Source: Vibrio sp. CB1-14 (GTDB taxonomy: Bacteria > Pseudomonadota > Gammaproteobacteria > Enterobacterales > Vibrionaceae). Taken from it: a DNA stretch of 64,000 bases. A model generated the notes under the pieces. It made no database searches. It worked only from the letters and a program-made list of their open reading frames with translations, and was not told where the DNA came from. Below, piece by piece: positions 29,501-46,005 of this stretch. A program made the position numbers and the translations under genes. The DNA lies in contig NZ_CP115921.1 in NCBI RefSeq assembly GCF_040412085.2, positions 744,001 through 808,000 on the forward strand, in the 5' to 3' direction. The first letter of the stretch is position 1. Each line of letters begins with the position of its first letter.

Positions 29501-30517
29501 GGTAACGGCGTTGAAGTGACGGGGGGTACCTATACTGGCGATAAACCGCACATTGGTGTTGAAATGGAAGAGATCGCCTTCGATGGTGCTGGCGCGGCTA
29601 AACAATCAGGCTTCTTTACCAAGCGGGACGATGAGAACGGGCAGGGTAAAGAGACAGAAGCTAAGCAGAACGAGTTTATGTCTATTCGATTTACAGCGGG
29701 TATGATGACTCGAGCCTTGGTTGGTGTTGGCAGCTTAACTGGACAGTTCAGTGCAGCTGCGAATGGTAACGGTGCAGCTCAGATATTCGTTTATCTCTAT
29801 GCGGGCGGTACCTTGCTTGATGAAACGCCGATTGTAATGGACAACAGTACCATCGTTGATCATCAGGCGGTCATCGAGGTCACATCGACTCTTCCTTTTG
29901 ATGAAATGCGAATCATGCCTTACAACGCTGAAGGTCAAGATGCTGGCTTTGTCCTACAGAGCTTAACCGTCACTGATGGCGAAGTTGCCGATGCGTTCGA
30001 TTATCGTGCGGTGGATTCTAATGGGCTGCAAAGCGATGATACAGCAACGGTTAATGTCAATATCGTACCAAACGGTAATGTAGCCGATGTGGAAGAAGTG
30101 GATTATGCTGTGCAGGGTGGCAGCGGAGTGACTGTTATTCACGGCACGGATGGCGACGATGTGCTTGAAGGTGGTTTGGGCAATGATGTCCTCACTGGTG
30201 GTCTAGGTAACGATACCTTTAAATGGGGAGCCGATGACCTCGATGGCAGTTATGATGTCGTCACTGACTTCTCTCAAGTCGATGGAAACCGAGATATTCT
30301 GGACTTAACGGATGTGTTTGAAGGTAGCGGTGAAACTCTTGATGACTTGTTAGATAATAACAACATCACAGTGACGAATACGGCAGATGAAACTGGCACT
30401 CTGGTTAACATCAATAAAGATGGTAAGAGCGTAACCATTGAGCTTGAAGGTGTGACTGGAATATCGTCATTGAGTGTTCCTGAACTAAGCCAGATTATTA
30501 TTGTTCTCGATACGTAG
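17588..30517 (+). CDS. Giant LapA-type surface adhesin with RTX secretion signal
   Basis: A 4309-residue type I-secreted adhesin. Residues 1-90 form a LapA-type retention module (MSTISLASLVQVSGTLIVDA, VVIDILDNVEVGEELNI), which plugs the exporter. A LapG-type cleavage motif PAAG lies at 94-97. About twenty Calx-beta-like repeats, each 110 residues, span about 160-2345; most contain DNDKP at the seam and VDDxxVEPTETYTL. Then come mixed domains: cadherin-like (DSDPDGHSFSVTSIFG), two further Calx-beta-like units, and lectin-like segments around 3130, 3600 and 3980. The C terminus has RTX nonapeptides (GTDGDDVLEGGLGNDVLTGGLGND, about 4187-4210) and a type I secretion tail. The ATG at 17588 has a ribosome site (caaggagcagaac). 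The exporter, LapG and LapD genes are 2.6 kb downstream on the other strand. Predicted role: attachment and biofilm, with ligand unknown. Confidence 0.93.
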   Translation: MSTISLASLVQVSGTLIVDAQGNLTVLPEGTAPRPGDVVIDILDNVEVGEELNIKLVQPDGEGQTVNVGDVDAEAIIAQIEQGEDPTQNEEEAPAAGEEGGSSPIAIGSISRAGAQTLAATNFDTSGLQAQGLTETQSLTLLDALGFVPPVVTAVTMASDRPGVDEGTNFDFNVSLSEAPPLAINIIIQLPESLDVDLESISFSEGVTISGGVLNVPAGVVTFNIVIPTVDDDIVEATENYTFFVGGIEASGEIYDNDKPAVLSVVPEGGENGVVEGGNLVFTVTLSEETLTEVQYALNLPESTDVDLTTISFTVGVTLVDGNLNVPIGVTTFDIILPTVDDQLVEPTETYVFDVEGVSSTGTILDNDKPSVQSVEVAGDDDSVVEGENLVFNVTLSEPTLSPVEYPLSLPLSLDVDTADISFTNGVTLVDGMVNVPVGVTTFDIILPTVDDNLVEPTETYTLNLDGVESTGSIVDNDKPSVTSIDVAGDTDSVVEGENLIFSVTLSEETLSPVEYPLTLPDSDDVNTSDISFTNDVTLVDGMLNVPVGVTTFDIILPTVDDQLVEPTETYTLNVDGVESTGSIFDNDKPSVTLIDVAGEDDSVVEGSNLVFSVTLSEQTQSPVQYPLTLPASPDVDTTNISFSNGVTLTDGMLNVPAGITTFNIVVPTVDDELVEPTETYTLSVDGIDSTGTILDNDKPSISSIDVAGGDDSVVEGNDLVFNVTLSEQTLSPVKYPLSLPVSEDVDTSNISFTNGVTLVDGMVNVPIGVTTFDIVLPTVDDDIVEATETYTLSLDSVDATGSILDNDKATVTSVAISDDTVEEGGNLIFNVTLSEQTLSPVEYPLTLPASDDINTAGITFTNDVTLVGGMINVPIGVTTFDIILPTVDDEIVEATEFYDLQVDGVSSTGTILDNDKPTITSIDVSGEDDSVVEGNNLVFSVVLSEETQSAVNYQLDLPLSPDVITSDVSFSNDVTLVDGVLNVPAGVTQFDIVLPTVDDELVEPTETYTLSVDDVQATGSILDNDKPSITSIEVAGDDDSVIEGNDLVFNVTLSEQTLSPVEYPLTLPASPDVDIANISFTNGVTLANGMLTVPVGVTTFDIVLPTEDDTIVEPTETYMLTLDGVESTGTILDNDKPSIESIDVAGDDDSVVEGNDLVFNVTLSEQTLSPVEYPLTLPASLDVDISGISFSNGVTLVDGMLNVPIGVTTFNIALPTVDDTLVEPTETYTLTIDGVDSMGSILDNDKPFVTSVEVTNEDDSVTEGESLVFSVTLSEATQSPVEYPLALPESVDVDLANISFTNNVTLVGSNLNVPVGVTTFDIILPTVDDELVEPTETYTLSVDGVESTGSIVDNDKPSVISIDVGGDSDSVVEGENLIFSVTLSEATLSPVEYPLTLPDSDDVNTSSISFTNGVTLVDGKINVPVGVTTFDIILPTVDDQFVEPTESYTLNVDGVESTGNILDNDKPSVTLIDVAGEDDSVTEGDSLVFSVTLSEATQSPVEYPLSLPDSLDVDTSNVSFSNNVTLVGGSLNVPVGVTTFDIILPTVDDEFVEPTETYTLSVDGIDSTGTILDNDKPSITSIEVAGDDDSVIEGNDLVFNVTLSEQTLSPVEYPLTLPASPDVDIANISFTNGVTLANGMLTVPVGITTFDIVLPTEDDTIVEPTETYMLTLDGVESTGTILDNDKPSIESIDVAGDDDSVVEGNDLVFNVTLSEQTLSPVEYPLTLPASLDVDISGISFSNGVTLVDGMLNVPIGVTTFNIVLPTVDDTLVEPTETYTLTIDGVDSMGSILDNDKPFVTSVEVTNEDDSVTEGESLVFSVTLSEATQSPVEYPLSLPDSDDVNTSSISFTNGVTLVDGKINVPVGVTTFDIILPTVDDQFVEPTESYTLNVDGVESTGNILDNDKPSVTLIDVAGEDDSVVEGSNLVFSVTLSEQTQSPVQYPLTLPASPDVDTTNISFSNGVSLTDGMLNVPAGITTFDIIVPTVDDELVEPTETYTLSVDGIDSTGTILDNDKPSITSIEVAGDDDSVIEGNDLVFNVTLSEQTLSPVEYPLTLPASPDVDIANISFTNGVTLANGMLTVPVGITTFDIVLPTEDDTIVEPTETYMLTLDGVESTGTILDNDKPSIESIDVAGDDDSVVEGNDLVFNVTLSEQTLSPVEYPLTLPASLDVDISGISFSNGVTLVDGMLNVPIGVTTFNIVLPTVDDTLVEPTETYTLTIDGVDSMGSILDNDKPSITSIEVAGDDDSVVEGNDLVFNITLSEQTLSPVEYPLNLPISPDVDTANISFTNDVTLVDGVLNVPVGVTTFDIVLPTVDDALVEPVETYTLTLDGVSATGSIIDNDNTDPIAENDPEGLDRTIGTVGSEKPGWTFDTNDSDDLIDSVTASYDGSDTGYQVYGSDKLGIDGTSTGGPNEQIQYNRNEGKSEKLTIDLKAPAVGGSFSVTNLYADEGGTDNHEQGKWSAYLGDTLIASDYFSNEEGNAGIFNIDTGGFAFDRIEFEAVEFTDGAARGNDSSDYFLQGVSFDGADAYVFAQGQEVRIPLSEILANDSDPDGHSFSVTSIFGESLGDAYIDGNDVVFELPDEFIGNAQFQYQITDERGGTDTATVSVLINPAPVAVDIIAFEADNNDVTEGDSFIYNVTLDGTTSVKTFFDIAFGAGSDSASANDIDLSSLDFSDEVTYNAVTGELEIPAGVSSFSIELPTVDDNRFENTEDFTLTIGGQSLAGNILDNDDVTLTLTGGGEVSEDAGSVEYVLGLSNPSDVPLTVTLERIDDTTDSGDFTTTTASYNNGSEDVTLDIVNNQIVIPAGVTAVDINVGIVDDDVYEQDEDFSLKVTEPAGLTTNGETGITVGATISDDGEIDGESDGDNDNLAPVIDLDDSEAGTGYLATFTEGDDPIMVVDSDIVIDDDIDVITKAEIKLTNPQASDSLQVVGSLPTGLDVTRVTIAGALVLTISGEGSSADYEAALQLLQFDNDSEDPNSVDRNIEITVFDDQGLASNVATSTINVVPVNDPPESEDFSFSVDGNDPVSVVFDTGTGTIEGEGSDHISDIEDDADGKQVKVTITELPVGGTLFYNGVAINQSNVENGDAFDPTHITYQPDSNAQGFVLGTKVIPTDSDLESTRDEFYNWGDKVDGKNRVLELENGDSITISSDKGNLTQYRGDVQANHVGHGLGIGGGHGINEGETLTIDFTQRPATHVELGLDGMGGYFLSGLGGDNESSVTVEVMLSDGKAIDYIPNVQKFTSGNDELFHVLNFSVDDLVGASEGVLITGVSLGTYGAGNWELRYLDTALNDSFKYTAVDSDQGESAVSVVTIIDERDNNAPPTLDLDLSAVGTGFDAIFTEGDEPLTIVDTDITIFDENNVISSAELIFTNPQTGDVFGLNATDNPLLSGIMYTTETLESGAIKITLTGDASAEDYEAAISLVQFENTSQSPSQDDRIIEITTFDDASEPSNTAVSTISVTGVADVTVAAASGFEDSKIDLDISLPAGSAAESIVISNIPTGAKIFDGNSELTVTDNSVSVTPLMLDTLTVQPPEDSDVDFTLLVTGLDALNQEVEAHDLEVVVKPVTDTPILQVSGDEIVASIDFENVTLNRSWRGDVTETELSSNGSVGTWGTNNPGGIVEVSQEGVYLGGNAQDRDNQLFEIEGRRGKDDSLFTEFDGKGGQFYELNFDVAARRVNDSPLKVFLVDEEDNRTELFEFDDSVNRDWNDVQEFFQVPKDGTYRIEFESEQDDSYGALLDNIVLSARSNVGYEDTYIDISDIVANLTDTDGSESLTLLIQGLPQGAIVTNGTQTSIAGANGKVDISDWSNLDDLQIQVADKGTYPLTITATASEGDTTFSPADKSESELIDLIVLEAPTSVEPNTPPLVTDFEFFAPDDTIPLNFADFVTDAEDDVSNDKDSLVEIVGEPEFGQLYFLSGTGERFDLDVGDLVEDTTNIYYDLEVGFDVSALGYNHQGQDPFGNGVEVTGGTYTGDKPHIGVEMEEIAFDGAGAAKQSGFFTKRDDENGQGKETEAKQNEFMSIRFTAGMMTRALVGVGSLTGQFSAAANGNGAAQIFVYLYAGGTLLDETPIVMDNSTIVDHQAVIEVTSTLPFDEMRIMPYNAEGQDAGFVLQSLTVTDGEVADAFDYRAVDSNGLQSDDTATVNVNIVPNGNVADVEEVDYAVQGGSGVTVIHGTDGDDVLEGGLGNDVLTGGLGNDTFKWGADDLDGSYDVVTDFSQVDGNRDILDLTDVFEGSGETLDDLLDNNNITVTNTADETGTLVNINKDGKSVTIELEGVTGISSLSVPELSQIIIVLDT
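18060..24640 (+). repeat. Tandem 330-bp adhesin repeats (about 20 units)
   Basis: The seam DNDK recurs from 18353 to 24617 with a mean spacing of 330 bases, keeping the reading frame. Units at 20671, 22321 and 23641 begin long near-identical blocks offset by exactly 1650 and 1320 bases; differences are a handful of single bases over 660-770 bases. This suggests recent duplication or gene conversion. Such DNA is likely to vary in copy number and to be misassembled with short reads. Confidence 0.93.
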
Positions 30518-33126: not shown

Positions 33127-35241
33127 TTAGCTTGCGGCTTTGACTTTGCCTTGTCTCAAATCGCTGAGTACCTGAGCTTTTGGACCATCCGCTATGATGG
33201 TGCCTTTCTCCATGACAATGACTCGATCAACCACATCTAACATGGACGTTTTGTGGGTAATCAGCAGCAGTGTTTCCGACTCTTTGAGCTGCTTGAGCTG
33301 GGTTTTAATGTGCAGCTCTGAGCGGTTATCCATAGAGCTGGTGGGCTCGTCCATAATCAAAATCGGAGGGCGAGCTAAGAATGCTCTGGCAATCGCGACT
33401 GCTTGTCTTTGACCACCAGAGAGGAGCAAGCCACCTTCACCTACTTGTCTTTCAAGACCGGCAGGATCTTGTTGAGTGAAGACGGTCACCCCAGCTCGGT
33501 TTGCTGCGTCCATAACGTCGCGATCATCGACCAGTGGTCGCCCTAGCGTAATGTTGTCGCGAATAGAGCCGTAAAATAGAGCGCAGTCTTGTGGTACACA
33601 GCCAATATTGCGTCTTACGTCCACGTGGTGAAGCTGAGCAATGTCGGTTTCATCAATCCTGACATGACCTTCAGTTGGTTGGTAAAGACCTATTATGAGC
33701 CGCTCAAGCGTGGTCTTCCCTGAACCAATACGACCGATGATAGCCACTTTTTCTCCGGGCTCTATCGTTAGGCTTAAATCCCGAATCGACGCCATGGGTG
33801 AATCTGGGTAGTGGAAGGTGACGCGATCCAGTTCGATTTTGCCGTGAATGATAGGGCGGTGAATGTAGCGCTTGCCTTCTTCTTGCTCGTCGGGCATCGC
33901 CATGACCTGTTCGATAATGGTCATTGACGATTTGGCTTGGTTGTAGCGTGTTGATAGCAGCGAAAGCTGCACTAATGGACCGATTGCACGGCTACTCAAC
34001 ATAGTAGCGGCAATGAGTCCACCCATGGTCAGCTCACCTTCTGCAATTAAGTAAACGCCGAGAATGATCATGCCTATGTTGGAGGATTGCTGCACAAAGC
34101 CAGCGGTATTTTGAATACCATCAGTGATACGTTTGCTTTTAATATTCCAGTTTGCCATGTGAGCGACCGCTTCTTCCCAGCGGTACTGATATTGGCTTTG
34201 GGCGCCAAATATTTTCACAGTTTCTAGTCCTGCTAAGCTCTCGATTAAGTTAGCGTATTTTTGCGAAGCAAGACGCGACCCTTCGTCGATAGTTTTGCGC
34301 AGCGGCCCTTGGATGAGTAGCGAATAAATAATGAGAATCACAACCCCGACAATAGGGATGATCACCAAGTTACCTGCCATTAGCCAAATGATAACTAAGA
34401 ACAGCAGCGCAAACGGTAGATCAATCAGGGAAGCTATGGTTGCTGAGGTGAAAAACTCGCGAATCGATTCAAACTCTTGCAAGTGACGCGCAAACGCTCC
34501 GACCGACGGTGGACGCGACTCCATTCGGATGCCCATCACCTTGCTAAACAGCTTAGATGAAATAAGAATGTCTGACTTTTTACCTGCTACGTCAATAAAG
34601 TAACTGCGCATGAGTTTGAGCAGTAAATCAAAGCCGAAGACGATAAAAATACCCGCAGCCAGTACCCAGAGGGTTTCAAAGGCAAGATTTGGCACCACTT
34701 TGTCGTATACCAAACGAGTGAACAGCGGCGCGGCAATGGCGAAGATATTGATAAGTAGCGAGGCAATCAACACATCGCGGTAGATGCGTTTTGATTCCCA
34801 TAAGGTGCCCCAAAACCAGTGGCCATCTCGGGTCTTAAGTACTTCAGGAGAGCGCTCGTCGTAGCGAAACTGCTTTTTAACCAAGAAGTAACGCCCCGAA
34901 TACTGGGCAATAAGATCGTCTAGGGCAATGGAGATGGGCACCATGCCAGACTCAAGTGTAATGATTTCCGCTTCATTTTTTTCTTGATCGATACTGTTCA
35001 GCACGCACGCATCGCCGCCTTTGAGAAGCAGAATTACAGGAAAAACGATGGTTGGAATAGCATCCAGATCCGCCCGGTTTTCTTTGGCGACCAAACCCGC
35101 ACGCTCGGCTGAGCGTGGTAGTAAGAATGGAGTCAGTTTGCCTGAAGATAGGGGCAGGCCATTAACCAACGCCTCAGGGGAGTTGGCTAAGCCGTAATAT
35201 CGACTGATGTAGATGAGCGAATTGAGTAACGGATCCTTCAT
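33127..35241 (-). CDS. lapB: LapB-like type I secretion ABC exporter
   Basis: A 704-residue permease/ATPase that powers export of the giant adhesin across the inner membrane. An N-terminal C39-like domain (about 1-130) lacks the catalytic cysteine, as in RTX exporters. Six membrane helices follow (about 155-430), then the ATPase with Walker A GRIGSGKTT, signature LLSGGQRQ and Walker B ILIMDEPTSSMD. The gene is the last of a four-gene minus-strand operon; 14 bases separate it from the lapD-like gene. The substrate is inferred to be the 4309-residue adhesin, whose gene lies 2.6 kb away. The gene name is by analogy with Pseudomonas. Confidence 0.92.
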   Translation of the reverse strand: MKDPLLNSLIYISRYYGLANSPEALVNGLPLSSGKLTPFLLPRSAERAGLVAKENRADLDAIPTIVFPVILLLKGGDACVLNSIDQEKNEAEIITLESGMVPISIALDDLIAQYSGRYFLVKKQFRYDERSPEVLKTRDGHWFWGTLWESKRIYRDVLIASLLINIFAIAAPLFTRLVYDKVVPNLAFETLWVLAAGIFIVFGFDLLLKLMRSYFIDVAGKKSDILISSKLFSKVMGIRMESRPPSVGAFARHLQEFESIREFFTSATIASLIDLPFALLFLVIIWLMAGNLVIIPIVGVVILIIYSLLIQGPLRKTIDEGSRLASQKYANLIESLAGLETVKIFGAQSQYQYRWEEAVAHMANWNIKSKRITDGIQNTAGFVQQSSNIGMIILGVYLIAEGELTMGGLIAATMLSSRAIGPLVQLSLLSTRYNQAKSSMTIIEQVMAMPDEQEEGKRYIHRPIIHGKIELDRVTFHYPDSPMASIRDLSLTIEPGEKVAIIGRIGSGKTTLERLIIGLYQPTEGHVRIDETDIAQLHHVDVRRNIGCVPQDCALFYGSIRDNITLGRPLVDDRDVMDAANRAGVTVFTQQDPAGLERQVGEGGLLLSGGQRQAVAIARAFLARPPILIMDEPTSSMDNRSELHIKTQLKQLKESETLLLITHKTSMLDVVDRVIVMEKGTIIADGPKAQVLSDLRQGKVKAAS

Positions 35242-35255
35242 GGATTCTGCACCTA

Positions 35256-37166
35256 TTATTTGTCCACGATAAAGCCTTGGAACACATCAACAAAGTGCTC
35301 AGACAAGAAGTCGAGCTGAGTTTGTGTTTCCACGCGAGAGGCAATGGTTTTGATACCTAAGTTGTGTGCTGTTCTTGAAATAGACGTCAGCGTAAACTTC
35401 TGTTTTTCATCATCAAGTTGATGGGTGTACAAGTAATCCAATTTCACGTAATCGGGTCTAAACTCGTTGAGGTATTCCAAAGATTGGAAGTTGCGTCCGT
35501 AATTATCGACACCAAATTTTGCTCCCGCATTGCGAATGGCATTACAAAATAGGGCGGTGTGATGCGGGTTACTGATAAAGCAGCTCTCTGGTATCTCAAA
35601 GTGCAGCTTCTCACAAATACTGGCGTGTTTACTTAGTTCTAACGATATCCAACGAATGAAGCTTGGCTGAGCAATACTGGTCGGCGTGATGTTGATGGCG
35701 ATGGCATCAGACATTTCTTCACGCTCTAGCTTATTGATGACCGATATAATGACGTGTTCATCGAAGATGTGGCTTGCATCAAGCTGCTCAAGCGCCAATA
35801 GATATTGGTTGGCCGTGTAGCGCTCGCCATCTTTTTCAATCGCCGAGAACACCTCACGGTGATAGGTTTCACCCCAGCTACTATTGGCAGCTTGGAAGCG
35901 GAAAGTCACTTCGTCGTCGTTGATGGCCTCTTCGACCAAGGCGCGCCATTGCTGTTTGCCCATGATGACGCCAGTGTGTTCGTTAGAGATGTAACCATAA
36001 TCTATCTCTGGATTCGATTTAGCTTTGGTGAGCGCGTTATCCAGCACAGACAGCATTTGCGTAGAATTTTTGCGCTCTTCATTAAACACCACACCAAGGG
36101 ATGCTTTTGCTTTGCTAAGACCAGTTGGGTCTGCATTGAGATCTTGAATACAGGTGATGATGCTGTTGGCTGCGAACTTGAGTTCATTTTCATCAATATT
36201 CGGGAATACAAAACCAAACTCATCCGTCGAGATACGAGCGATCACGGTGTTTGGCAAATTAATGGTCATCGACAGTAGATCGGCAAGCTCGCGCACTAGC
36301 CCATCCCCAGCCTCATAACCTTCCCCCTTATAAGTCTGCTTAATAAATTCAGCATGCAAGATGGCGACGCCACCCAATGAAGATTCGCTCAGCCACTGAT
36401 TGAGCTGTCCCATGAAGAAAGCACGGTTACCAAGGTGAGACACGGGATCCATATACGCGCGTTCGCGCAGCTTCTGTGCTTCCTTCGCTTGCTGTTTGAA
36501 GGATTCTTCTACGTGTGCCGACATACTATTGATGCCATCTACGACAGCAATCAAATCTCGGGTTCTAGGTCTAAGCAGCGGTTCACCAAACTGACGATTG
36601 GCCACTTGTTCCATTTTAACCACAATGGCGCGCAGTGGATTCAGCGCTCGGCGTAATATAAACGCGATAGCGAGTAAGCCTAATACGAGAATGCCCAAAA
36701 ATGCCGCTGAAAGACGCTCAAACGCATGCCAAAGCTGAGAATAGGCCTCGCCAGGGTGACTAACAATTTCTACCTCTGCCAACTGTAGCCAGCCACTAGT
36801 GACGACGCGAGAGTCCTGGATTGGCGAAAACAGAGGAAGATTGGTAAACCATGCAGGTACGTCGCTCGGTTTGATTGGATAAGTGCGCAGTATTTCTTCA
36901 TCACTCTCAAGAAATACCAGGCGAACCGTAGAGTAGGTGCTGCCATCAAATAGGGCGTTGATCACCGATTCCACGGCGACCTTGTCTTGAGACTGTAGGT
37001 ACGGCGCCAAGGCAAGTCCGACGGTATTGATGGTGTTATTGACTTCAGAGCGTTGCTGCCGCTCCAAAAAATCTTTGGTGGTGTTAATTTCGATAATAAA
37101 CACCGACGTCAATAACAGTAAAAAAACGGCTATCATGCCGACCACTAGCTGTCTGTATAGTGTCAT
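35256..37166 (-). CDS. lapD: LapD-like c-di-GMP receptor (degenerate GGDEF-EAL)
   Basis: A 636-residue inner-membrane receptor that holds LapG when c-di-GMP is bound and so protects the adhesin from cleavage. A first membrane helix (about 8-26), a periplasmic domain (about 30-150) with a GW pair at 125-126 matching the LapG-docking tryptophan of LapD, a second helix (about 153-171) and HAMP (about 172-225) precede the cytoplasmic part. GGDEF is replaced by STDEF at 313-317, and the EAL motif region (TFRFQAANSSWGE) lacks EAL, so both domains are predicted inactive enzymes that only bind ligand. It starts 7 bases after lapG. Confidence 0.92.
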   Translation of the reverse strand: MTLYRQLVVGMIAVFLLLLTSVFIIEINTTKDFLERQQRSEVNNTINTVGLALAPYLQSQDKVAVESVINALFDGSTYSTVRLVFLESDEEILRTYPIKPSDVPAWFTNLPLFSPIQDSRVVTSGWLQLAEVEIVSHPGEAYSQLWHAFERLSAAFLGILVLGLLAIAFILRRALNPLRAIVVKMEQVANRQFGEPLLRPRTRDLIAVVDGINSMSAHVEESFKQQAKEAQKLRERAYMDPVSHLGNRAFFMGQLNQWLSESSLGGVAILHAEFIKQTYKGEGYEAGDGLVRELADLLSMTINLPNTVIARISTDEFGFVFPNIDENELKFAANSIITCIQDLNADPTGLSKAKASLGVVFNEERKNSTQMLSVLDNALTKAKSNPEIDYGYISNEHTGVIMGKQQWRALVEEAINDDEVTFRFQAANSSWGETYHREVFSAIEKDGERYTANQYLLALEQLDASHIFDEHVIISVINKLEREEMSDAIAINITPTSIAQPSFIRWISLELSKHASICEKLHFEIPESCFISNPHHTALFCNAIRNAGAKFGVDNYGRNFQSLEYLNEFRPDYVKLDYLYTHQLDDEKQKFTLTSISRTAHNLGIKTIASRVETQTQLDFLSEHFVDVFQGFIVDK

Positions 37167-37172
37167 AATTAT

Positions 37173-37883
37173 TTACTCGTCGTAATTTACCTTTGGTTTC
37201 CGTAACGTTAATGAGCGCTCGCGACTGCGCAAATCATTCCATAATTTTAGTCTCGACGACTTTCCGGCTAACTTGCCTTGGGTGGTTTTCATGGTCCACA
37301 AGTTGCGACCATTAAAACTGTATATCGGGAGTAGATCGCCGCGTTTAGACGCGGGTTTTATTTCGCCAATAAGATTGTCTAAGATCAGCGGTTGAGAGCG
37401 TGGTGTTTCGTAGTAGGCAAGCACCATGTGGAATTGATTGAGCTCAATCGCCTTAACGTAGACTAAACGTAGCTTTTTATCGGAGATACCGAGTTCGAGC
37501 AGCGAGAAGTATTTGGCGATGGTAAAGTCTTCACAGTCACCAGCATTGCTCCCTAAAAACTCCAGCGGCGTTGCCCAGTAGTCTTTTCTTCCCCACAATC
37601 GAATATCATCGACAAAGTTGAGCTGGTTGAAGAACTCGTTCACTCCAGACAGTTGTTGTTTCTCGGATTTTCCCTGTAAACCAGCCAGCACAGAACGCCA
37701 TGTCTGAACACGTTTACCCGCCCGCTCTCCGTACGTCTTGGTAACTGTACTAATCCAACGCTGTTCTTGTTTGGTGTAGGCGTCAGTGGTCGTCGCGAGC
37801 GATAAGGTTACCGCTGCGGCACAACCGATTAATGTAAACTTCAATTTGGCGCGCAGACGCCCCATTCGCTCACTCTTTATCAC
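37173..37883 (-). CDS. lapG: LapG-like periplasmic cysteine protease
   Basis: A 236-residue transglutaminase-like (BTLCP) protease that clips the adhesin retention module. It has an N-terminal membrane/signal segment (about 14-36). The catalytic triad is Cys117 (GDCEDF), His152 (FHMVL) and Asp169 (ILDN). It lies between the lapC-like and lapD-like genes, 10 and 7 bases apart. The expected target is the PAAG motif at adhesin residues 94-97. Calcium dependence is known for the family; not visible here. Confidence 0.93.
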   Translation of the reverse strand: MIKSERMGRLRAKLKFTLIGCAAAVTLSLATTTDAYTKQEQRWISTVTKTYGERAGKRVQTWRSVLAGLQGKSEKQQLSGVNEFFNQLNFVDDIRLWGRKDYWATPLEFLGSNAGDCEDFTIAKYFSLLELGISDKKLRLVYVKAIELNQFHMVLAYYETPRSQPLILDNLIGEIKPASKRGDLLPIYSFNGRNLWTMKTTQGKLAGKSSRLKLWNDLRSRERSLTLRKPKVNYDE

Positions 37884-37892
37884 TAAGTCCCT

Positions 37893-39284
37893 TTACTCTT
37901 TTAGAGCGTTGTTTTGTGCGCTTATTATTGGTTTGAGCAGGTAATCTAGTACCGTGCGTTTACCTGTAATAATGTCAACCGATGCGGTCATGCCCGGAAT
38001 AATAGGCAAGGTTTCATCGTGACCAAAGCTAGTCTTTTCGGTTCTGACTCGAACAATATAAAAGCTGTTGCCTTCCTCATCCTGAGTCGTATCCGCGCTG
38101 ATATGTTCTAGCGTTCCATCTAAGCCGCCGTATTTGGTAAAGTCGTAGGCGCTGAACTTGACGATAGCGTGTAATTCTGGGCGTAAAAACGCGATATCTT
38201 GCGGTGCAATTTTCGCCTCAACCAGCAAGGTGTCTTCGGTTGGAACGATCTCAACAATATCCATGCCGGGCTGAATAACACCGCCGACAGTGTTGACGTT
38301 AAGTGTTTTTACCGTGCCGTTTACAGGAGACACCACGACAGTGCGGTTTACTCTATCTTCAAGACCAACAGCGGATTCTGTCATGGAAGAGAGCCGGTCT
38401 TGTGCTTCGTTGAGTTTTTCTTGCTGTTCTGAGCGGAATTTTTGTGCAATGTCGATACGGCTGAGTTTGGATTCCTCGATGGCAGAGCGCAGGGTAGGCA
38501 ATTTAAGCTCCGTTGAAGTAAGCTCTCGTCTAGTGTCGTTGACTTGTCGTTGCAATTTAAGCAGTTCAACTTTTGGGACGACACCTTCATCGGCTAGAGG
38601 TTTGGTGATGTTTAACTCGTCACGGGCTAGGTTGTAGCCGTTTCTTAGATTTCGAACTCGGGCTTGCATCTCAACGAGATCCTGTTGTTTCTGTCTGACC
38701 TGTTGATCAATAACAGAGAGCTCGTTGCGAAGTTCATTGAGATCTTGGCGGTATTCTGCTCTTTGGCGAGACACTAAGTTCTTATTGTTCTCTTCAAATG
38801 TAGGCGGGTAGGCGAGCTTATTGGTATCCAGTGTGACAGATTCTCGCCAGTCATTTCCTGATTTTGACTCATCAATAATAACGCTAGTCAGCGACGCTGA
38901 GAGTTGCAACACGCTCGCTGTAAGATTGAGAACCTGCTGCTCACGCTCGCGAAAGTCCGATCTGAAACGTGTATCATCAATCAGCAGAAGTTGTTGCCCT
39001 TGAGTGACCGAGTCGCCCTCTCGAACGAGAATTTCTTTAACGAGACCACCTTCTAGGTTTTGAATCACCTGTATTTGCGAAGAGGGAACAACTTTACCTT
39101 GGCCGACGGTCACTTTATCGATTTCTGCCCACGCAGCCCAGACCACAGCACAAACAAAAAACAGCAACATCACCCAAAGCATGATTCTGGCACTGGTAGG
39201 AGTATTGAGCAGCAAAGCAGCGGTTTTGTCGTCGATGTAATCCAGCTCGGCGTCCGACACCTTTTTGTATTCTTTATTATCCAT
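37893..39284 (-). CDS. lapC: LapC-like (HlyD family) membrane fusion protein
   Basis: A 463-residue periplasmic adaptor of a type I secretion system. It has one N-terminal membrane helix (about 33-55), a biotinyl-lipoyl half (VGQGKVVPSSQIQVIQNLEGG, about 75-95), a long coiled coil (about 110-300) and a second lipoyl half with beta-barrel. First gene of the operon; its promoter must lie in the 358 bases upstream. The outer-membrane channel is not encoded in the window, so a TolC-type partner elsewhere is required. Confidence 0.92.
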   Translation of the reverse strand: MDNKEYKKVSDAELDYIDDKTAALLLNTPTSARIMLWVMLLFFVCAVVWAAWAEIDKVTVGQGKVVPSSQIQVIQNLEGGLVKEILVREGDSVTQGQQLLLIDDTRFRSDFREREQQVLNLTASVLQLSASLTSVIIDESKSGNDWRESVTLDTNKLAYPPTFEENNKNLVSRQRAEYRQDLNELRNELSVIDQQVRQKQQDLVEMQARVRNLRNGYNLARDELNITKPLADEGVVPKVELLKLQRQVNDTRRELTSTELKLPTLRSAIEESKLSRIDIAQKFRSEQQEKLNEAQDRLSSMTESAVGLEDRVNRTVVVSPVNGTVKTLNVNTVGGVIQPGMDIVEIVPTEDTLLVEAKIAPQDIAFLRPELHAIVKFSAYDFTKYGGLDGTLEHISADTTQDEEGNSFYIVRVRTEKTSFGHDETLPIIPGMTASVDIITGKRTVLDYLLKPIISAQNNALKE

Positions 39285-41380: not shown

Positions 41381-41715
41381 TCTTCATGTCGGAAGACAAT
41401 AAAGCTTGGTCGATTCCAATAAAGTTTGTCACGTCTGCGCAGTTAGTTCACTTGACAGAGATTTATGTGAACCGGTTTTAGCAAACACGCCTTTGCCCCA
41501 AACCTTCACAGAACCGACAAACGGCACACCTGAGCAGTACACCAATAGACCAACTTAATCTAATCCGTACTTTGTTCTCTTATACGGTGTTTTTCCGTAA
41601 TTCAACCCAACATCTATATGTCGATTCACATAACAGGTTGATACCAGTTGAGTTTCATAATAAATGGCTGCAACATAGGCGGAATGCAAAGACGGAAAAA
41701 GTCCGTCTATAAAGC
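41381..41715. other. Non-coding stretch between araC-type gene and IS element
   Basis: These 335 bases hold no credible gene. A small hairpin (agacgg...ccgtct, about 41691-41709) lies just before the insertion. I looked for an upstream attC and found no convincing one; an acccaac word at about 41606 lacks the paired arms. Confidence 0.4.
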
Positions 41716-41730
41716 TACATGGACTCCCTC

Positions 41731-41941
41731 TTTTGTCAACAATAGCTCCCGCTAATAACAGTGGATCTGACAGCAGCTCTACATTCGGTGTTTAATCGGA
41801 GAAACTCCGTCACCCTGATGATATTCGCTTGATGTTGACCTCATTCGTTAGTCAGTATTTGCTACTAGCTTTATAGACAGGTTTAAACATCTCGGTCTGA
41901 TCGTATTGTCATCATTTGCTATTGCTTTGACTCGGTGAGTG
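41731..41941 (-). ncRNA. Candidate bridge RNA of the IS1111-group element
   Basis: The 3' non-coding region of the element, read on the transposase strand. A hairpin at 41891-41831 has a closing stem (GAUGUU with AACAUC, then ACC with GGU), an open loop, and an apical hairpin AGUA-GCAAA-UACU. The loop strands read GUCUAUAAAGCUA (from 41878-41866) and UAACGAAUGA (from 41850-41841). The first equals the 13 bases left of the insertion (41705-41717); the second is complementary to the 10 bases right of it (43042-43051). This is the expected arrangement of left and right target guides. A donor-binding loop should lie in the remaining part (41731-41825), but I could not assign its guides. Confidence 0.75.
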
Positions 41942-42970
41942 TTAACCGTTTACATAGTTAATTTTGTACTCTTTTCCCGTGGTTAATAGTGCCCATATGA
42001 TACGAGCATTCTTTGCTGCTAGGGCGACAGCCGCTCGTTTATAACCTCGTCGTTCAACGAGTTGATTTAACCAAATACTGTTGCGGTCGGTTTTCTCTTT
42101 GCATCGTGCAATAATGGCTCTTGCGCCATGAATAAGTAGAGTACGAATATGTTTTTCGCCTCTTTTGCTGATGCGCCCAAGGTGAACATGACCACCTGTT
42201 GAGTATTGCCTTGGAACCAACCCTATCCATGCGGCGAACTGGCAGCTAGAGCCAAATTGCTTGGCGTCATTGACGGTCGCGACAATGGCACTTGCACTGT
42301 GTTCACCGACACCAGGAATATTCATAAGAGCCCTGGCTGAAGCCATTTCACGGACTAATGCTGATACTCTTCGATCATAGTGCAGGACTTCAAGATTAAG
42401 GCTTTGAATCTTGTTCGACAGATCTTGAAGTAGTTCACGAGCTAGCATGGGTAAACCATTTTCAGCATCCTCAAGGATACTCCCGATAGTGTTTTGGGCT
42501 GAGTAGCGGCCTTTTGGCATGACAAGACCAAATTCAGAAAGTAATCCTCTGAGTTGGTTAATGGTTGCGGTTCTTGTTTTAATTAGGCCTTGACGGATAC
42601 GATGTAGGCAAAGCACTGCTTGTTGTTCTTCACTTTTTATAGAGACAAATCGTGTTTTGGGTCTAGATACTGCTTCGCAGATGGCCTCTGCATCATTGGC
42701 ATCATTCTTTTCATTTTGTCGATACGGAATAACGAATTTGGACGCCATGATTTTAGGGCTATGACCGAGTTTAAGTAACTCCCTTGCCCAGTGGTGCGCA
42801 CCGGAGCAAGCTTCCATACCGATGAGGCAGGGTGGTAATTTTGCGAATGTGTCTAAGAGTTTGTTTCTTTTAACAGTTTTGCGTAGGATACACTTGCCAT
42901 ATGCATCAACGCCGTGAATACTGAACACATTCTTGGCGAGGTCAACGCCAATAGTTTGAATTGTGGACAT
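41942..42970 (-). CDS. IS110/IS1111 transposase (DEDD and serine recombinase)
   Basis: A 342-residue IS110-family recombinase. The N-terminal RuvC-like domain carries the DEDD residues D10 (GVDLAK), E53 (GMEACSG), D90 and D93 (NDANDAEA). The C-terminal Transposase_20 domain contains IPGVGEHSASAIVA and the catalytic serine near 241 (FGSSCQFAAWIGL). Length and motifs look intact, so the element may be active. These enzymes use a structured RNA from the element to pair target and donor DNA; a candidate lies downstream. The ribosome site is ggaggttact. Confidence 0.93.
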   Translation of the reverse strand: MSTIQTIGVDLAKNVFSIHGVDAYGKCILRKTVKRNKLLDTFAKLPPCLIGMEACSGAHHWARELLKLGHSPKIMASKFVIPYRQNEKNDANDAEAICEAVSRPKTRFVSIKSEEQQAVLCLHRIRQGLIKTRTATINQLRGLLSEFGLVMPKGRYSAQNTIGSILEDAENGLPMLARELLQDLSNKIQSLNLEVLHYDRRVSALVREMASARALMNIPGVGEHSASAIVATVNDAKQFGSSCQFAAWIGLVPRQYSTGGHVHLGRISKRGEKHIRTLLIHGARAIIARCKEKTDRNSIWLNQLVERRGYKRAAVALAAKNARIIWALLTTGKEYKINYVNG

Positions 42971-43142
42971 AGTAACCTCCAGTTCTTCAGCGTGTACTGA
43001 GTAAGTATGGCACGCAGAGTGTCAGGGAGAGGGAGTCCATATCATTCGTTAGGCTAATTTCCCACCTCAATCACAAATGGATAATTAACAATTGTGTTAT
43101 TGTCTTTAATGTACTGTTTTTAACAAAAGCGTAGGAATTTCA

Positions 43143-43376
43143 ATGAATCTTGATATAAAAATTTTATCGAAAGGTGACTCGGTTATGAATGTCATGCCTT
43201 TCGGAGCGAGTATCGCTATTGCTGTGAAAAAGAAAAATGGAAAAGTAGAAATTGTTCTTTTAGACAGAAATGATGAAAATATTCCCGAAATAACGGCAAC
43301 ATGGACAATCAGTGAAGGTGAAGGGGAGATAGGTGTATCCAGTTCAGATAATGATGTAAAAATCACCACGTTTTAG
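43143..43376 (+). CDS. Cassette 1 gene A, unknown small protein
   Basis: A 77-residue protein, MNLDIKILSKGDSVMNVMPF..., with a ribosome site (gtaggaatttca). It contains KKKNGKVEIVLLDRNDENIPEITATW and is probably mostly beta strands; there is no signal or membrane segment. I recognise no family. It is the first of three closely spaced genes in one cassette (9 bases to the next), so its function is probably tied to the zinc-knuckle and HNH proteins. Confidence 0.75.
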   Translation: MNLDIKILSKGDSVMNVMPFGASIAIAVKKKNGKVEIVLLDRNDENIPEITATWTISEGEGEIGVSSSDNDVKITTF

Positions 43377-43385
43377 AGGTCACAT

Positions 43386-43661
43386 ATGAAATGTAGTATT
43401 TGTGGGCAAAGTGGGCACAATAAGCGTTCTTGTACTCAAACGGTTTCTGAACCTTCGCCAGATACACGTGATCGTGCGCTGATTTTGCGCATTGATAATA
43501 TGACCCAAACTGAACAGGATGAAATGCACATTGAACTTGTTAGGCTTAAGAAGAGAGTAACGGATAGTGCCGCAAAAGCGACATTAGTTGAAGGTGGCAG
43601 TAAAGAGTTACCGAGTAAAATACGTGCTCTTATTGAAGCACAAGAGGAAAATAATGGTTAA
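43386..43661 (+). CDS. Cassette 1 gene B, CCHC zinc-knuckle protein
   Basis: A 91-residue protein whose N terminus MKCSICGQSGHNKRSCTQ is a perfect CX2CX4HX4C zinc knuckle (C3, C6, H11, C16), a fold that binds single-stranded nucleic acid and is far more common in retroviruses and eukaryotes than in bacteria. The rest (about 30-91) is charged and helical. A ribosome site (agaggtcacat) precedes it. Its last 8 bases overlap the HNH gene, which indicates coupled translation. No further family is recognised. Confidence 0.82.
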   Translation: MKCSICGQSGHNKRSCTQTVSEPSPDTRDRALILRIDNMTQTEQDEMHIELVRLKKRVTDSAAKATLVEGGSKELPSKIRALIEAQEENNG

Positions 43662-43884
43662 GCGCCCTTATTCTCACACAAAACAGCAAAAAAAAATTAA
43701 AGAACTCCAAGAGCATATTTGTATAGTTTGTTGGGATCACGATAGAAAGAAGGCTAGAGGGCATCATCTAATCCCTTTTTCGGAAGAAGGCAGCGATAAT
43801 ATTATTAACTTCGTAACTTTATGTGATGATTGCCACAAAAAATACCACGCAGGAAAGCTGAACCTAGATTTCTATCGATTCTAA
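43654..43884 (+). CDS. Cassette 1 gene C, small HNH endonuclease
   Basis: A 76-residue HNH nuclease domain protein. C23 and C26 (ICIVC) and C57 and C60 (LCDDC) bind structural zinc. The active-site HH is H37-H38 (GHHLIPF), followed by N52 and H61/H65 (CHKKYH). I chose the ATG at 43654, after agaggaaa, because an upstream in-frame ATG at 43588 would place about 22 residues of another frame of gene B in front of the domain. It is a minimal stand-alone nuclease with no other domain. DNA cleavage is inferred from the family. Confidence 0.85.
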   Translation: MVKRPYSHTKQQKKIKELQEHICIVCWDHDRKKARGHHLIPFSEEGSDNIINFVTLCDDCHKKYHAGKLNLDFYRF

Positions 43885-43890
43885 AAATTA

Positions 43891-43995
43891 GCCTAACAAG
43901 GCAATCAAGGTGATGCGTTACACTCGGCGGTTTTGGTATGGAGTTCAGTGTGCTTTGCTGGTTCAGTGGGGCACACCTTATTGCAGGCGTTAACT
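43891..43995 (+). other. attC: attC1 recombination site (VCR-like)
   Basis: R'' is GCCTAAC (43891-43897) and R' is GTTAACT (43989-43995). The inner arms GCAAT(C)AAGGTG and CACCTTATTGC are complementary with one extra-helical C, the hallmark of a foldable attC. Length is 105 bases. Confidence 0.85.
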
Positions 43996-44010
43996 GGCTA
44001 GGAGAGTGAC

Positions 44011-44739
44011 GTGAATTCGTATACAAAGCATCATATACATAAATTTTTTGATAAGTATCTAAAACGTGAATTCGACCAAGATGATGTCGCTCTGTTTATT
44101 GTTTTGGTTAGGGATTACACCCCAAAACCAAGTATATTTCGAGAGTTAGGAGATTTCCTCGCTCATCCAGAACAAAAAAATTGTGGTGTTGTCATTAATA
44201 ATTTCAAGCCAGTAACTTCATATTTTGAACGAAAAACTGAGCGTGTAATGGATGGTGGAAAAATTCCGATGGAACGACCATTAGGCTTAGGTGTGCTTGA
44301 AGATGTTCAACAAAGTTTAGGGGCTATTTTTAAGGAAGTTGAAATCTCAGGCTTTGTGAATGATAAAAATGATCCTTCTTTTCGCGACTTTATTTTTTGT
44401 CTAATTTTTATGCTTAGTAACTTTAGGTTGAAAATCAAGAATCAACTTGTTGATATGAAGGTAAATTTTGGAAATTCATTAAGCTTATCAGTCTCTTACG
44501 AAAGTTCGAAATTTGAGCGAAACTATATATCTTTAACAGTTCTTTGGCTAAATGCTGTTTGGGTAACTTGCCCTAGTGGATTTACCGAAGAACTGAAAGG
44601 CTATATTGCACGTAGATTTTCTAATGGTCTCTTAGGTGCCATTCCATATGAAGCAGATACCAATAGCCTCTCAACGAACATGGAAGATATACCAAAAAGT
44701 CAAATATGGCCTTTAGTTGACAGGCGAGTAGGCATTTAA
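44011..44739 (+). CDS. Cassette 2 protein, function unknown
   Basis: A 242-residue protein, MNSYTKHHIHKFFDKYLKRE..., starting at a GTG preceded by ctaggagagtgac. It has no signal or convincing membrane segment; residues 129-145 (DFIFCLIFMLSNFRL) are hydrophobic but short. Base composition is AT-richer than the core genes. I recognise no family. Its stop codon lies within the left arm of attC2, so the gene runs into its recombination site, unlike the others. Confidence 0.78.
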   Translation: MNSYTKHHIHKFFDKYLKREFDQDDVALFIVLVRDYTPKPSIFRELGDFLAHPEQKNCGVVINNFKPVTSYFERKTERVMDGGKIPMERPLGLGVLEDVQQSLGAIFKEVEISGFVNDKNDPSFRDFIFCLIFMLSNFRLKIKNQLVDMKVNFGNSLSLSVSYESSKFERNYISLTVLWLNAVWVTCPSGFTEELKGYIARRFSNGLLGAIPYEADTNSLSTNMEDIPKSQIWPLVDRRVGI

Positions 44740-44849
44740 GACGGATTCTCAACGCTTGGCATTCTCGGTTTGGGTTGGCTTCAGTGTTGAATGCGGCAAG
44801 GTTTTAGGCTGGGTGGAGGCGTTGTTCACCACTTAATGCGGCGTTAGGT
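44722..44849 (+). other. attC: attC2 recombination site with degenerate left core
   Basis: The right core GTTAGGT (44843-44849) is good, and the arms GCATT(T)AAG (44732-44740) and CTTAATGC pair. The expected left core, complementary to GTTAACT, should be near 44722-44728 but reads aggcgag. The site may fold poorly and recombine weakly. Confidence 0.7.
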
Positions 44850-44887
44850 ATCTAAGTTGGTCGTTATACAAGCAAGAAGGGGGTCGG

Positions 44888-45715
44888 TTGAAACTATATA
44901 AATATTTGCCAGTGGAAAGAGTCGATGTACTGGAGAATTTGCGAGTCAGATTTACTCAACTGAGTTCTTTAAATGACCCATATGAAATGCATCATTCTTT
45001 CAATGTAACTGATCTAGTTAATAATTTGTCCAAGGAATCTCGAGAACTATTGAACGAGTGGTGGTCGGATTTGAGTGATGACAAACGCATTGAGTTGGAG
45101 CCAGAGTATAATCAGGTTCTCAGTGAAATCGAAGAGAACTCAGGTAACCTTATTAGAGAAAACAAAATGACATCTGAAATGTCAAAGTTAATGGATAAAG
45201 TTATTGGGGTGCTTTCGTTATCTCAAACGAATGAGAGTTTGTTAATGTGGTCACATTATGCAGATTCGGGTTGCGGTTACGTTATTGAGTTTGATTCTAA
45301 TCACGAGTTTTTTCATCGGCCCGGGCTGAATGGTGTGAGCACTGACCCAATAGTTATAAAATATGAGGAATCCCCAAACTTGCTAGACATTGGCAAAGTT
45401 TACGATAGTTCGTCGATTCTAGGTGTCAAATCTAGTGAGTGGGCTTATGAAAAGGAAGTGCGATTAACTTTGAATTTTATTGGTATTAAACCTCAAGTAA
45501 ACAGTGATAATCGTCCGATAATTGACCCTTTCGGTAACAAAGTCTATTTGGCAGATATACCCAAAGATGCAATTAAATCTATTTTTTTCGGTCCTAGAAC
45601 CAGTGTGGATACAAAAAATAGAATATTGAAAGCTATAAATGACAATTACATTGAGTGCCAAGTATTTGAGCACGAGGTCGCCGTTAATACTTACAAATTA
45701 ATCCAGCGCGTGTAG
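44888..45715 (+). CDS. Cassette 3 protein, DUF2971 family
   Basis: A 275-residue protein beginning MKLYKYLPVERVDVLENLRVR with a TTG start after aagggggtcgg. The pattern KLYKY...LSSLNDPYEM, the central LLMWSHYADSGCGYVIEFD and the late IKSIFFGPRT match DUF2971, a soluble family of unknown activity often found near defence genes and in cassettes. All elements are present, so the gene looks intact. Its stop codon lies 3 bases before attC3. Confidence 0.88.
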   Translation: MKLYKYLPVERVDVLENLRVRFTQLSSLNDPYEMHHSFNVTDLVNNLSKESRELLNEWWSDLSDDKRIELEPEYNQVLSEIEENSGNLIRENKMTSEMSKLMDKVIGVLSLSQTNESLLMWSHYADSGCGYVIEFDSNHEFFHRPGLNGVSTDPIVIKYEESPNLLDIGKVYDSSSILGVKSSEWAYEKEVRLTLNFIGIKPQVNSDNRPIIDPFGNKVYLADIPKDAIKSIFFGPRTSVDTKNRILKAINDNYIECQVFEHEVAVNTYKLIQRV

Positions 45716-45717
45716 CT

Positions 45718-45843
45718 ACCTAACAATCGCTTCAAGTTGATTCGTAACGCTTGGCGGTTTTGGTGTTAATTTTGGTTTGGGTGATTACGGTTTAAAATTT
45801 GGCTTCAGTGGTGCGTACCTCACAACTTAAGCGGGCGTTACTT
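45718..45843 (+). other. attC: attC3 recombination site, end of array
   Basis: R'' ACCTAAC (45718-45724) and R' GTTACTT (45837-45843). Arms CGCTT(C)AAGTTG and CAACTTAAGCG pair with one extra-helical C. The middle matches V. cholerae repeats (TAACGCTTGGCGGTTTTGG). Host sequence presumably resumes after the G at 45837. Confidence 0.87.
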
Positions 45844-46005
45844 TTCCATACGTGGACTAATCCGTTACATTCTAATTTAGTAATATAACTGAATCAGTTA
45901 TGTCCAAAAACGTTTCAGAAAGTGATCAAACTGTAGCTTTCTATAGTCCAATAATTGCTTGAAAAGGCTAGTTTCCTATGCCTTCCGACACTTCAAATGA
46001 ATCAA

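Follow-up and report, generated by a model that had tools for sequence, protein, structure and literature searches.

The insertion sequence

The window, by which we mean the whole stretch of 64,000 nucleotides that was analysed, carries within an array of gene cassettes an insertion sequence (IS) whose ends were placed by comparison with 19 related elements. The element comprises the following features.

41716..43047, minus strand: IS1111-type insertion sequence, 1332 bp
43041..43047, minus strand: left extension GAATGAT, 7 bp, the outer left end of the IS (GAATGAT or GAATGAA in 19/19 relatives)
43028..43040, minus strand: left subterminal inverted repeat (sTIR) ATGGACTCCCTCT, 13 bp
41942..42970, minus strand: DEDD transposase ORF, 342 aa, with the motif GLVPRQYSTG, assigned by Pfam domains
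41731..41941, minus strand: 3' non-coding region (NCR), predicted seekRNA/bridge RNA, from the fold and the relatives
41886..41891, minus strand: closing stem, 5' arm GATGTT, changing together with the 3' arm among relatives
41868..41878, minus strand: predicted guide strand 1, GTCTATAAAGC, which can base-pair with the transposase strand of the right target half
41841..41851, minus strand: predicted guide strand 2, CTAACGAATGA, five target bases (CTAAC) and six bases that equal the IS left end (GAATGA)
41831..41836, minus strand: closing stem, 3' arm AACATC, changing together with the 5' arm among relatives
41719..41731, minus strand: right sTIR AGAGGGAGTCCAT (read on the transposase strand), 13 bp
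41716..41718, minus strand: right extension GTA, 3 bp (GTA in 17/19 relatives)

The transposase matched PF02371 at 2.2e-25 and PF01548 at 2.3e-15, and among solved structures its C-terminal part alone found matches, ISCro4 (E 1.4e-08) and IS621 (E 1.5e-08). Only one full-length match to the element was found in its own genome, and it is thus present as a single copy. As described for the IS1111 family (PMC11187229), the transposases have a C-terminal GL-P----S(t)G motif, and the ends carry a 7-bp left and a 3-bp right extension outside the sTIRs. The focal element has a DEDD transposase with PF01548 and PF02371, the GL-P----S(t)G motif, perfect left and right sTIRs of 13 bp, the 7/3 extensions and a long downstream non-coding region. 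Judged from these features it is an IS1111-group insertion sequence, for which a seekRNA (bridge RNA) is predicted downstream of the transposase gene. The IS1111-type class of such RNAs was described in 2024. An initial annotation of this DNA had proposed an IS1111-group element with a guide RNA in its 3' non-coding region, and the domains, the motif, the sTIRs, the extensions and the NCR support this assignment.

Related elements were drawn from 100 relative genomes (20 of which had any match), from a scan of genome contigs in which 80 loci were taken among 562 confirmed, and from two plasmid records, of Vibrio maritimus (85.0%) and V. parahaemolyticus (76.9%). The set holds 27 elements at or above 58% transposase identity, including the copy in the window, and both ends were located in 19 of them; L034 was counted with a re-located right end, and L004 (96% identity) was excluded from the counts for a mismatch in its sTIR, although its visible ends agree. 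With the focal copy counted, the left extension is GAATGAT in 17/19 and GAATGAA in 2/19, and the right extension is GTA in 17/19, GTG in 1/19 and ATA in 1/19. The four bases outside the left extension are TAAC in 18/19 relatives and TAGC in L035, and the right flank is variable. Three copies of one and the same element in a single genome (L008, L022 and L030) have identical extensions and differing outer flanks. Since the extensions are constant while the sequence outside them varies, the extension bases belong to the IS.

The element occupies the end of an attC-like site

The sequences on both sides of the IS were compared with other genomes of the genus and with each other.

41481..41715, plus strand: main part of the interrupted attC-like repeat, left of the IS (repeat in 43/196 genus genomes)
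43048..43054, plus strand: GTTAGGC, R'-like core completing the site on the right side of the IS, from the sequence and from GTTA after the repeat in other loci
43887..45845, plus strand: continuation of the cassette array, two cassette genes and three attC-like sites, read from the sequence and by comparison of cores
about 43887-43997, 44749-44850 and 45716-45842, plus strand: the three further attC-like sites of the same array

The 158 bases left of the IS lie within a repeat that is present in 43/196 genus genomes and three times in its own genome. In all 14 aligned loci from other genomes, which have differing genes on both sides, the stretch in common begins at 41481-41498 and extends to 41710-41715; the bases right after it are GTTA in 11 of the 14 loci and GTAA, ATTA and TATC in the remaining three. 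Because GTTA follows the repeat in most of the other-genome loci, and GTTAGGC and an attC-like array lie right of the IS, the interrupted repeat was identified as an attC-like site. The junction AAAGC|GTTAGGC shows the IS inserted at the end of this site in the cassette array, a setting that the initial annotation had missed. In attC nomenclature (R', R'', L' and L''), the sequence places the IS at the L'/R' junction. The bottom strands of the three further sites of the array begin TAAC|GCC. The site is called attC-like because the textbook R''/R' pairing was absent from the minimum free energy (MFE) DNA fold of the rejoined site on both strands and the AAC at the left edge of the repeat is not constant in the alignment. 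The target sequence of the focal element is CTAACGCTTTATAGAC, and the ordinary attC half is TAACGCCCAATTAAG.

The element's own genome has two further copies of the attC-like repeat (L134), at G000:C1 1236441-1236539 and 1248605-1248759, 12 kb apart and in opposite orientation. The cassette gene at 43588-43884 encodes an HNH endonuclease domain protein (Pfam 2.7e-11) and that at 44888-45715 a DUF2971 protein (Pfam 3.1e-08); the cassette ORF at 44011-44739 had no Pfam match.

The non-coding region contains two predicted guide strands

The initial annotation had pointed to two strands within a hairpin loop of the NCR that match the flanks, and both matches were confirmed. The first strand, GTCTATAAAGCTA (minus 41878-41866), has the same bases as plus 41705-41717; it consists of guide 1 and two further bases (TA, 41867-41866), which match the right extension of the IS. 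The second strand, TAACGAATGA (minus 41850-41841), shows full complementarity to plus 43042-43051, and this match reaches 11 bases (CTAACGAATGA, minus 41851-41841 = minus 43052-43042). In 5000 dinucleotide shuffles of the NCR, a run of at least 13 bases to the left flank never occurred (0/5000), a run of at least 11 bases to the right flank occurred four times (4/5000), and runs of at least 10 bases to both flanks jointly were absent (0/5000), in agreement with the earlier claim that the matches lie beyond chance. Guide 1 matches the occupied site at 11/11 bases, and the three other attC-like sites of the array at 5, 5 and 4 of 11 bases. As described for IS1111 seekRNAs (PMC11187229), the complement of the top strand lies 5' of the match to the bottom strand, and the target-guide arrangement proposed for the focal element has this same order. 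The published RNA is 70-100 nt long and co-purifies with the transposase (PMC11187229).

The loop was said to be closed by a stem, and in the MFE fold of the region GATGTT (minus 41891-41886) does pair with AACATC (minus 41836-41831). The arms change in step among relatives, which supports the proposed two-stranded guide loop: in 17 distinct NCRs the summed stem length was 106 with each element's own arms, compared to 71.2 (sd 5.0) when the arms were swapped (0/50000 permutations, which treat the elements without regard to relatedness), and 4-8 pairs form in 16 of the 17. For this comparison the arms were paired by anchor motifs, with L035 mis-parsed and included at its low value. RNAalifold, run on the 17 NCRs after MAFFT alignment, failed to find the closing stem (energy -13.8, with a covariation term of +1.8). 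Only about half of the 17 NCRs have the inner hairpin as their best local pairing; this and the RNAalifold result count against the guide-RNA reading. No Rfam family reached its gathering score for the NCR, and no convincing donor-binding loop of the IS621 style was found among matches of at least 7 bases.

Empty sites support the corrected boundaries

The initial annotation had divided the matched bases into 13 left and 10 right of the element with a TA core, and had predicted a 23-base target before insertion. The relatives instead place the IS at 41716-43047. Searching 196 genus genomes for an uninterrupted site with the joined 13+10 bases, with up to one mismatch, returned no place for TATAAAGCTATCATTCGTTA, which covers 20 of the 23 joined bases (0/196). 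The corrected empty junction GTCTATAAAGCGTTA was found at 27 places in 22/196 genus genomes. As a control, the reversed pattern was found at 1 place. For the attC-type targets of relatives, the uninterrupted TAACGCCCANTTAAG occurs at 12 places in 4/6 genomes, and TAACGAATGATAGC, which follows from the earlier split, in 0/6 genomes.

These results bear on an alternative in which the bridge RNA is IS621-like, the core is TA and the target has 23 bases (GTCTATAAAGC-TA-TCATTCGTTA), both guides being wholly target guides. Such an arrangement would account for the perfect match of both guide strands to the occupied flanks under the TA split. However, it does not fit with GAATGA(T/A) in 19/19 relatives whatever the outer flank, nor with the absence of the joined string and of TAACGAATGATAGC; this arrangement, which expects GAATGATA between TAAC and GCTTT in the uninterrupted site, is refuted by the boundary and junction searches. 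The 7/3 rule for IS1111 ends, as stated in PMC11187229, and the promoter-like sequence at the joined ends also fit the corrected boundaries. We therefore ruled out the TA-core target on the extensions of the relatives and the empty-site searches, and regard this alternative as extremely improbable.

With the corrected 7/3 boundaries, the sequence expected at the joint of the circular form is GTAGAATGAT. When the right IS end is joined to the left, a promoter-like TTGACA-16-TAGAAT arises whose -10 spans the joint, and the junction-spanning -10 is the best match in 16/19 elements, both being raw matches scored without a shuffle control. A promoter at the joined ends of the circular form has been described for IS1111 elements (PMC11187229).

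Guide 1 follows the right flank and guide 2 matches a conserved half

In relatives, guide 1 was associated with the element's own right flank. The longest runs summed to 97 for own flanks, compared to a permuted mean of 58.6 (sd 6.2; 0/100000), in a test on 15 distinct guide/flank pairs from 19 elements that gave own and permuted flanks the same freedom of register and ignored relatedness among the elements. An earlier test in a fixed register gave 79 matches against a mean of 59.7 (1/20000). The own flank was best or tied in only 7/15 pairs by runs and 8/15 by matches, and the guide 1 match is poor, with a longest run of 3-4, in 7/19 elements. The initial annotation had expected both guides to vary with the flanks; this held for guide 1 (0/100000, with poor matches in 7/19) and failed for guide 2. 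Guide 2 does not track the outer flank because its target part TAAC is conserved, and so uninformative in this comparison, and the rest is the IS's own left end, TAACGAATGA being four target bases and six bases of that end.

The two parts of guide 2 were surveyed in 58 elements, of which 47 were used; the 11 dropped were four duplicates, five without an anchor and two with a doubtful right end. Among the 31 IS1111 elements outside the focal group, RNA and target share base 2 past the boundary in 25/31, and bases 3 and 4 of the RNA agree with the IS end in 27/31 and 26/31. Among the 16 elements of the focal group, each of bases 1-6 of the RNA agrees with the IS end in 15 or 16; here the anchor preferred RNA continuing with GA and so biased bases 1-2, leaving bases 3-6 and the 31 other elements unaffected. 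The IS end and the RNA motif both hardly vary, so this agreement is a lead and not covariation. In the focal copy, guide 2 fits the integrated junction with 11 bases compared to 6 for the empty target.

The conserved left half would also be expected if target recognition depended chiefly on the transposase or on attC folding into a hairpin, the RNA matches being a by-product: TAAC in 18/19 relatives would suit a fixed core, and the poor guide 1 matches in 7/19 elements point in the same direction. Against this, guide 1 follows the variable right half, the closing stem covaries, and in other IS1111 elements the RNA is reported as required and reprogrammable (PMC11187229). We consider recognition without a guiding RNA very unlikely.

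The guide segment appears to come from another lineage

The similarity of the window copy to its relatives changes along the element, and one segment stands apart.

41716..41877, minus strand: putative imported part of the mosaic, running from guide 1 up to the right end and resembling L007/L021, the rest of the element resembling L002/L003

The transposase gene of the window copy is closest to L002 (90.3%) and L003 (89.9%), and L007 and L021 are 72% alike in this gene. At NCR positions 46-150, in contrast, L007 (93.3%) and L021 (88.6%) are closest, compared to 79.0 and 78.1% for L002 and L003. The targets are GCTTTATATACGG and GCTTTATAGACGG for L007 and L021, and GCCCTGTTAAGG and GCCCAATTAAG for L002 and L003. 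The transposase gene and the early NCR thus resemble copies at ordinary Vibrio attC sites, and the stretch that begins with guide 1 and runs to the right end is closer to diverged elements at another attC type. At the 290 sites informative between L003 and L007, the window copy sides with L003 232:37 to the left of the break and with L007 20:1 to its right (13:1 without guide 1). The break lies at element position 1170 (window about 41877), its statistic was reached by 0/2000 permutations, and the L002/L007 and L003/L021 comparisons gave the same break position.

Stepwise mutation or convergence around guide 1 in an L003-like lineage, with no exchange of segments, would give a similar picture if selection for a new target altered the guide bases in place, and the informative sites on the right are few (21). 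However, right-hand sites outside guide 1 also follow L007 (13:1; for L021, 14:2), and permutation did not reproduce the break, so we hold this explanation to be unlikely. The mosaic pattern points instead to natural retargeting by exchange of a guide module, an apparent recombinant origin of the guide segment that the initial annotation also missed. The focal copy probably came to its present attC type through a swap of the stretch from guide 1 to the right end, taken from a lineage already there. Natural redirection is known for ISEc11/ISXne4 and ISEc21/ISMch6 from the published account (PMC11187229), to which the mosaic would add a visible route and an indication of how such elements may change target.

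A model for RNA-guided insertion and its relation to known systems

Taken together, these results are best explained by an IS1111 seekRNA element that inserted by RNA guidance at an attC-like junction and whose guide segment was probably exchanged, a reading to which we give a probability of about 0.9. The anatomy, the boundaries, the covariation of the stem, the association of guide 1 with the flank, the uninterrupted sites and the promoter-like sequence, present only where the ends are joined, all read from the sequence, carry this explanation. The NCR of 41716-43047 would encode a seekRNA/bridge RNA that presents two guide strands in an internal loop. On the transposase strand, guide strand 1 would pair with the right target half (GCTTTATAGAC). 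Guide strand 2 would pair on the opposite strand with the left half (CTAAC and the junction G) and continue into the IS left end (AATGA). The transposase-RNA complex would insert the circular IS at the C|G boundary in CTAAC|GCTTTATAGAC, without target duplication. Transcription and processing of the RNA, its binding by the protein, circle formation and strand exchange are steps that we infer.

More tentatively, and at somewhat less than even odds, guide specificity may move as a recombination module and guide 2 may at the same time be composite, reading the left half of the target and then the IS left end. If guide 2 is composite, a single RNA strand could read the target as well as the product or donor. 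As far as the literature consulted goes, module exchange and a composite guide 2 would go a little beyond published accounts.

The focal element resembles the IS1111 seekRNA elements ISEc11, ISPa11, ISKpn4 and ISPst6, as described in PMC11187229, in its sTIRs (11-13 bp in the class), 7/3 extensions, downstream NCR, guide order, promoter-like sequence at the joined ends and lack of target duplication. Compared to the descriptions given there, it differs in that its RNA is predicted from the sequence, its target is a Vibrio-type cassette site and its guide segment appears to have changed lineage. With the IS1111-attC group (ISKpn4, ISPst6 and ISPa25), as presented in the same source (PMC11187229), it shares insertion at one attC end of integron cassettes; the focal target, by contrast, belongs to an attC-like repeat that is long, at about 240 bp, and the likeness noted here concerns the target. 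IS621 of the IS110 group, in the published description (PMC11208160), likewise has a DEDD recombinase and a non-coding guide RNA. By comparison with that description (PMC11208160), the focal RNA lies on the other side of the gene, its guide order is reversed, and the element has a long sTIR, no recognised donor loop and no CT core.

IS1111 seekRNA elements at attC-like sites are already known, and no new class is opened here; this element adds corrected boundaries and a well-supported module exchange. The IS1111-attC group is reportedly the subject of works by Tetu and Holmes (2008) and Post and Hall (2009). The locus offers a natural case of RNA-guided insertion in which the guide, the target, the uninterrupted sites and the guide's donor lineage may all be read from sequence, and in which guide RNAs would let insertion sequences settle in gene-cassette arrays. 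The corrected boundaries would be needed by anyone reprogramming such an RNA.

The surrounding island and other loci

The cassette array and the IS lie within 41387-45990, which is bounded by 9-bp inverted repeats (TGTCGGAAG/CTTCCGACA) and directly flanked by a 5-bp direct repeat, CTTCA (41382-41386 and 45991-45995). This segment appears to be a mobile cassette island, with no integron integrase gene inside. Ends matching its left end (41387-41480) were found in 15/99 genus genomes and four times in its own genome. Inward of one matching end (L153), weak Phage_integrase and DUF6262 matches were found, both below the Pfam cut-off, and a clear Phage_integrase gene lies near another (L156). The island ends recall SE/Tn554-like elements as described in PMC10214605. 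A Tn7-like nature of the ends was considered and dropped, since these results point rather to elements with tyrosine recombinases.

A full integron integrase (L111; 474.6 bits, over the cut-off) is encoded on the other chromosome at G000:C1 2125299-2126240, and the ORFs downstream of it resemble, by eye, genes for a ribosomal protein and a translation factor. Elsewhere in the window, 17588-30517 holds a repetitive, adhesin-like ORF of 4309 aa, and the genes downstream of it (33127-39284) resemble, by eye, a type I secretion system.
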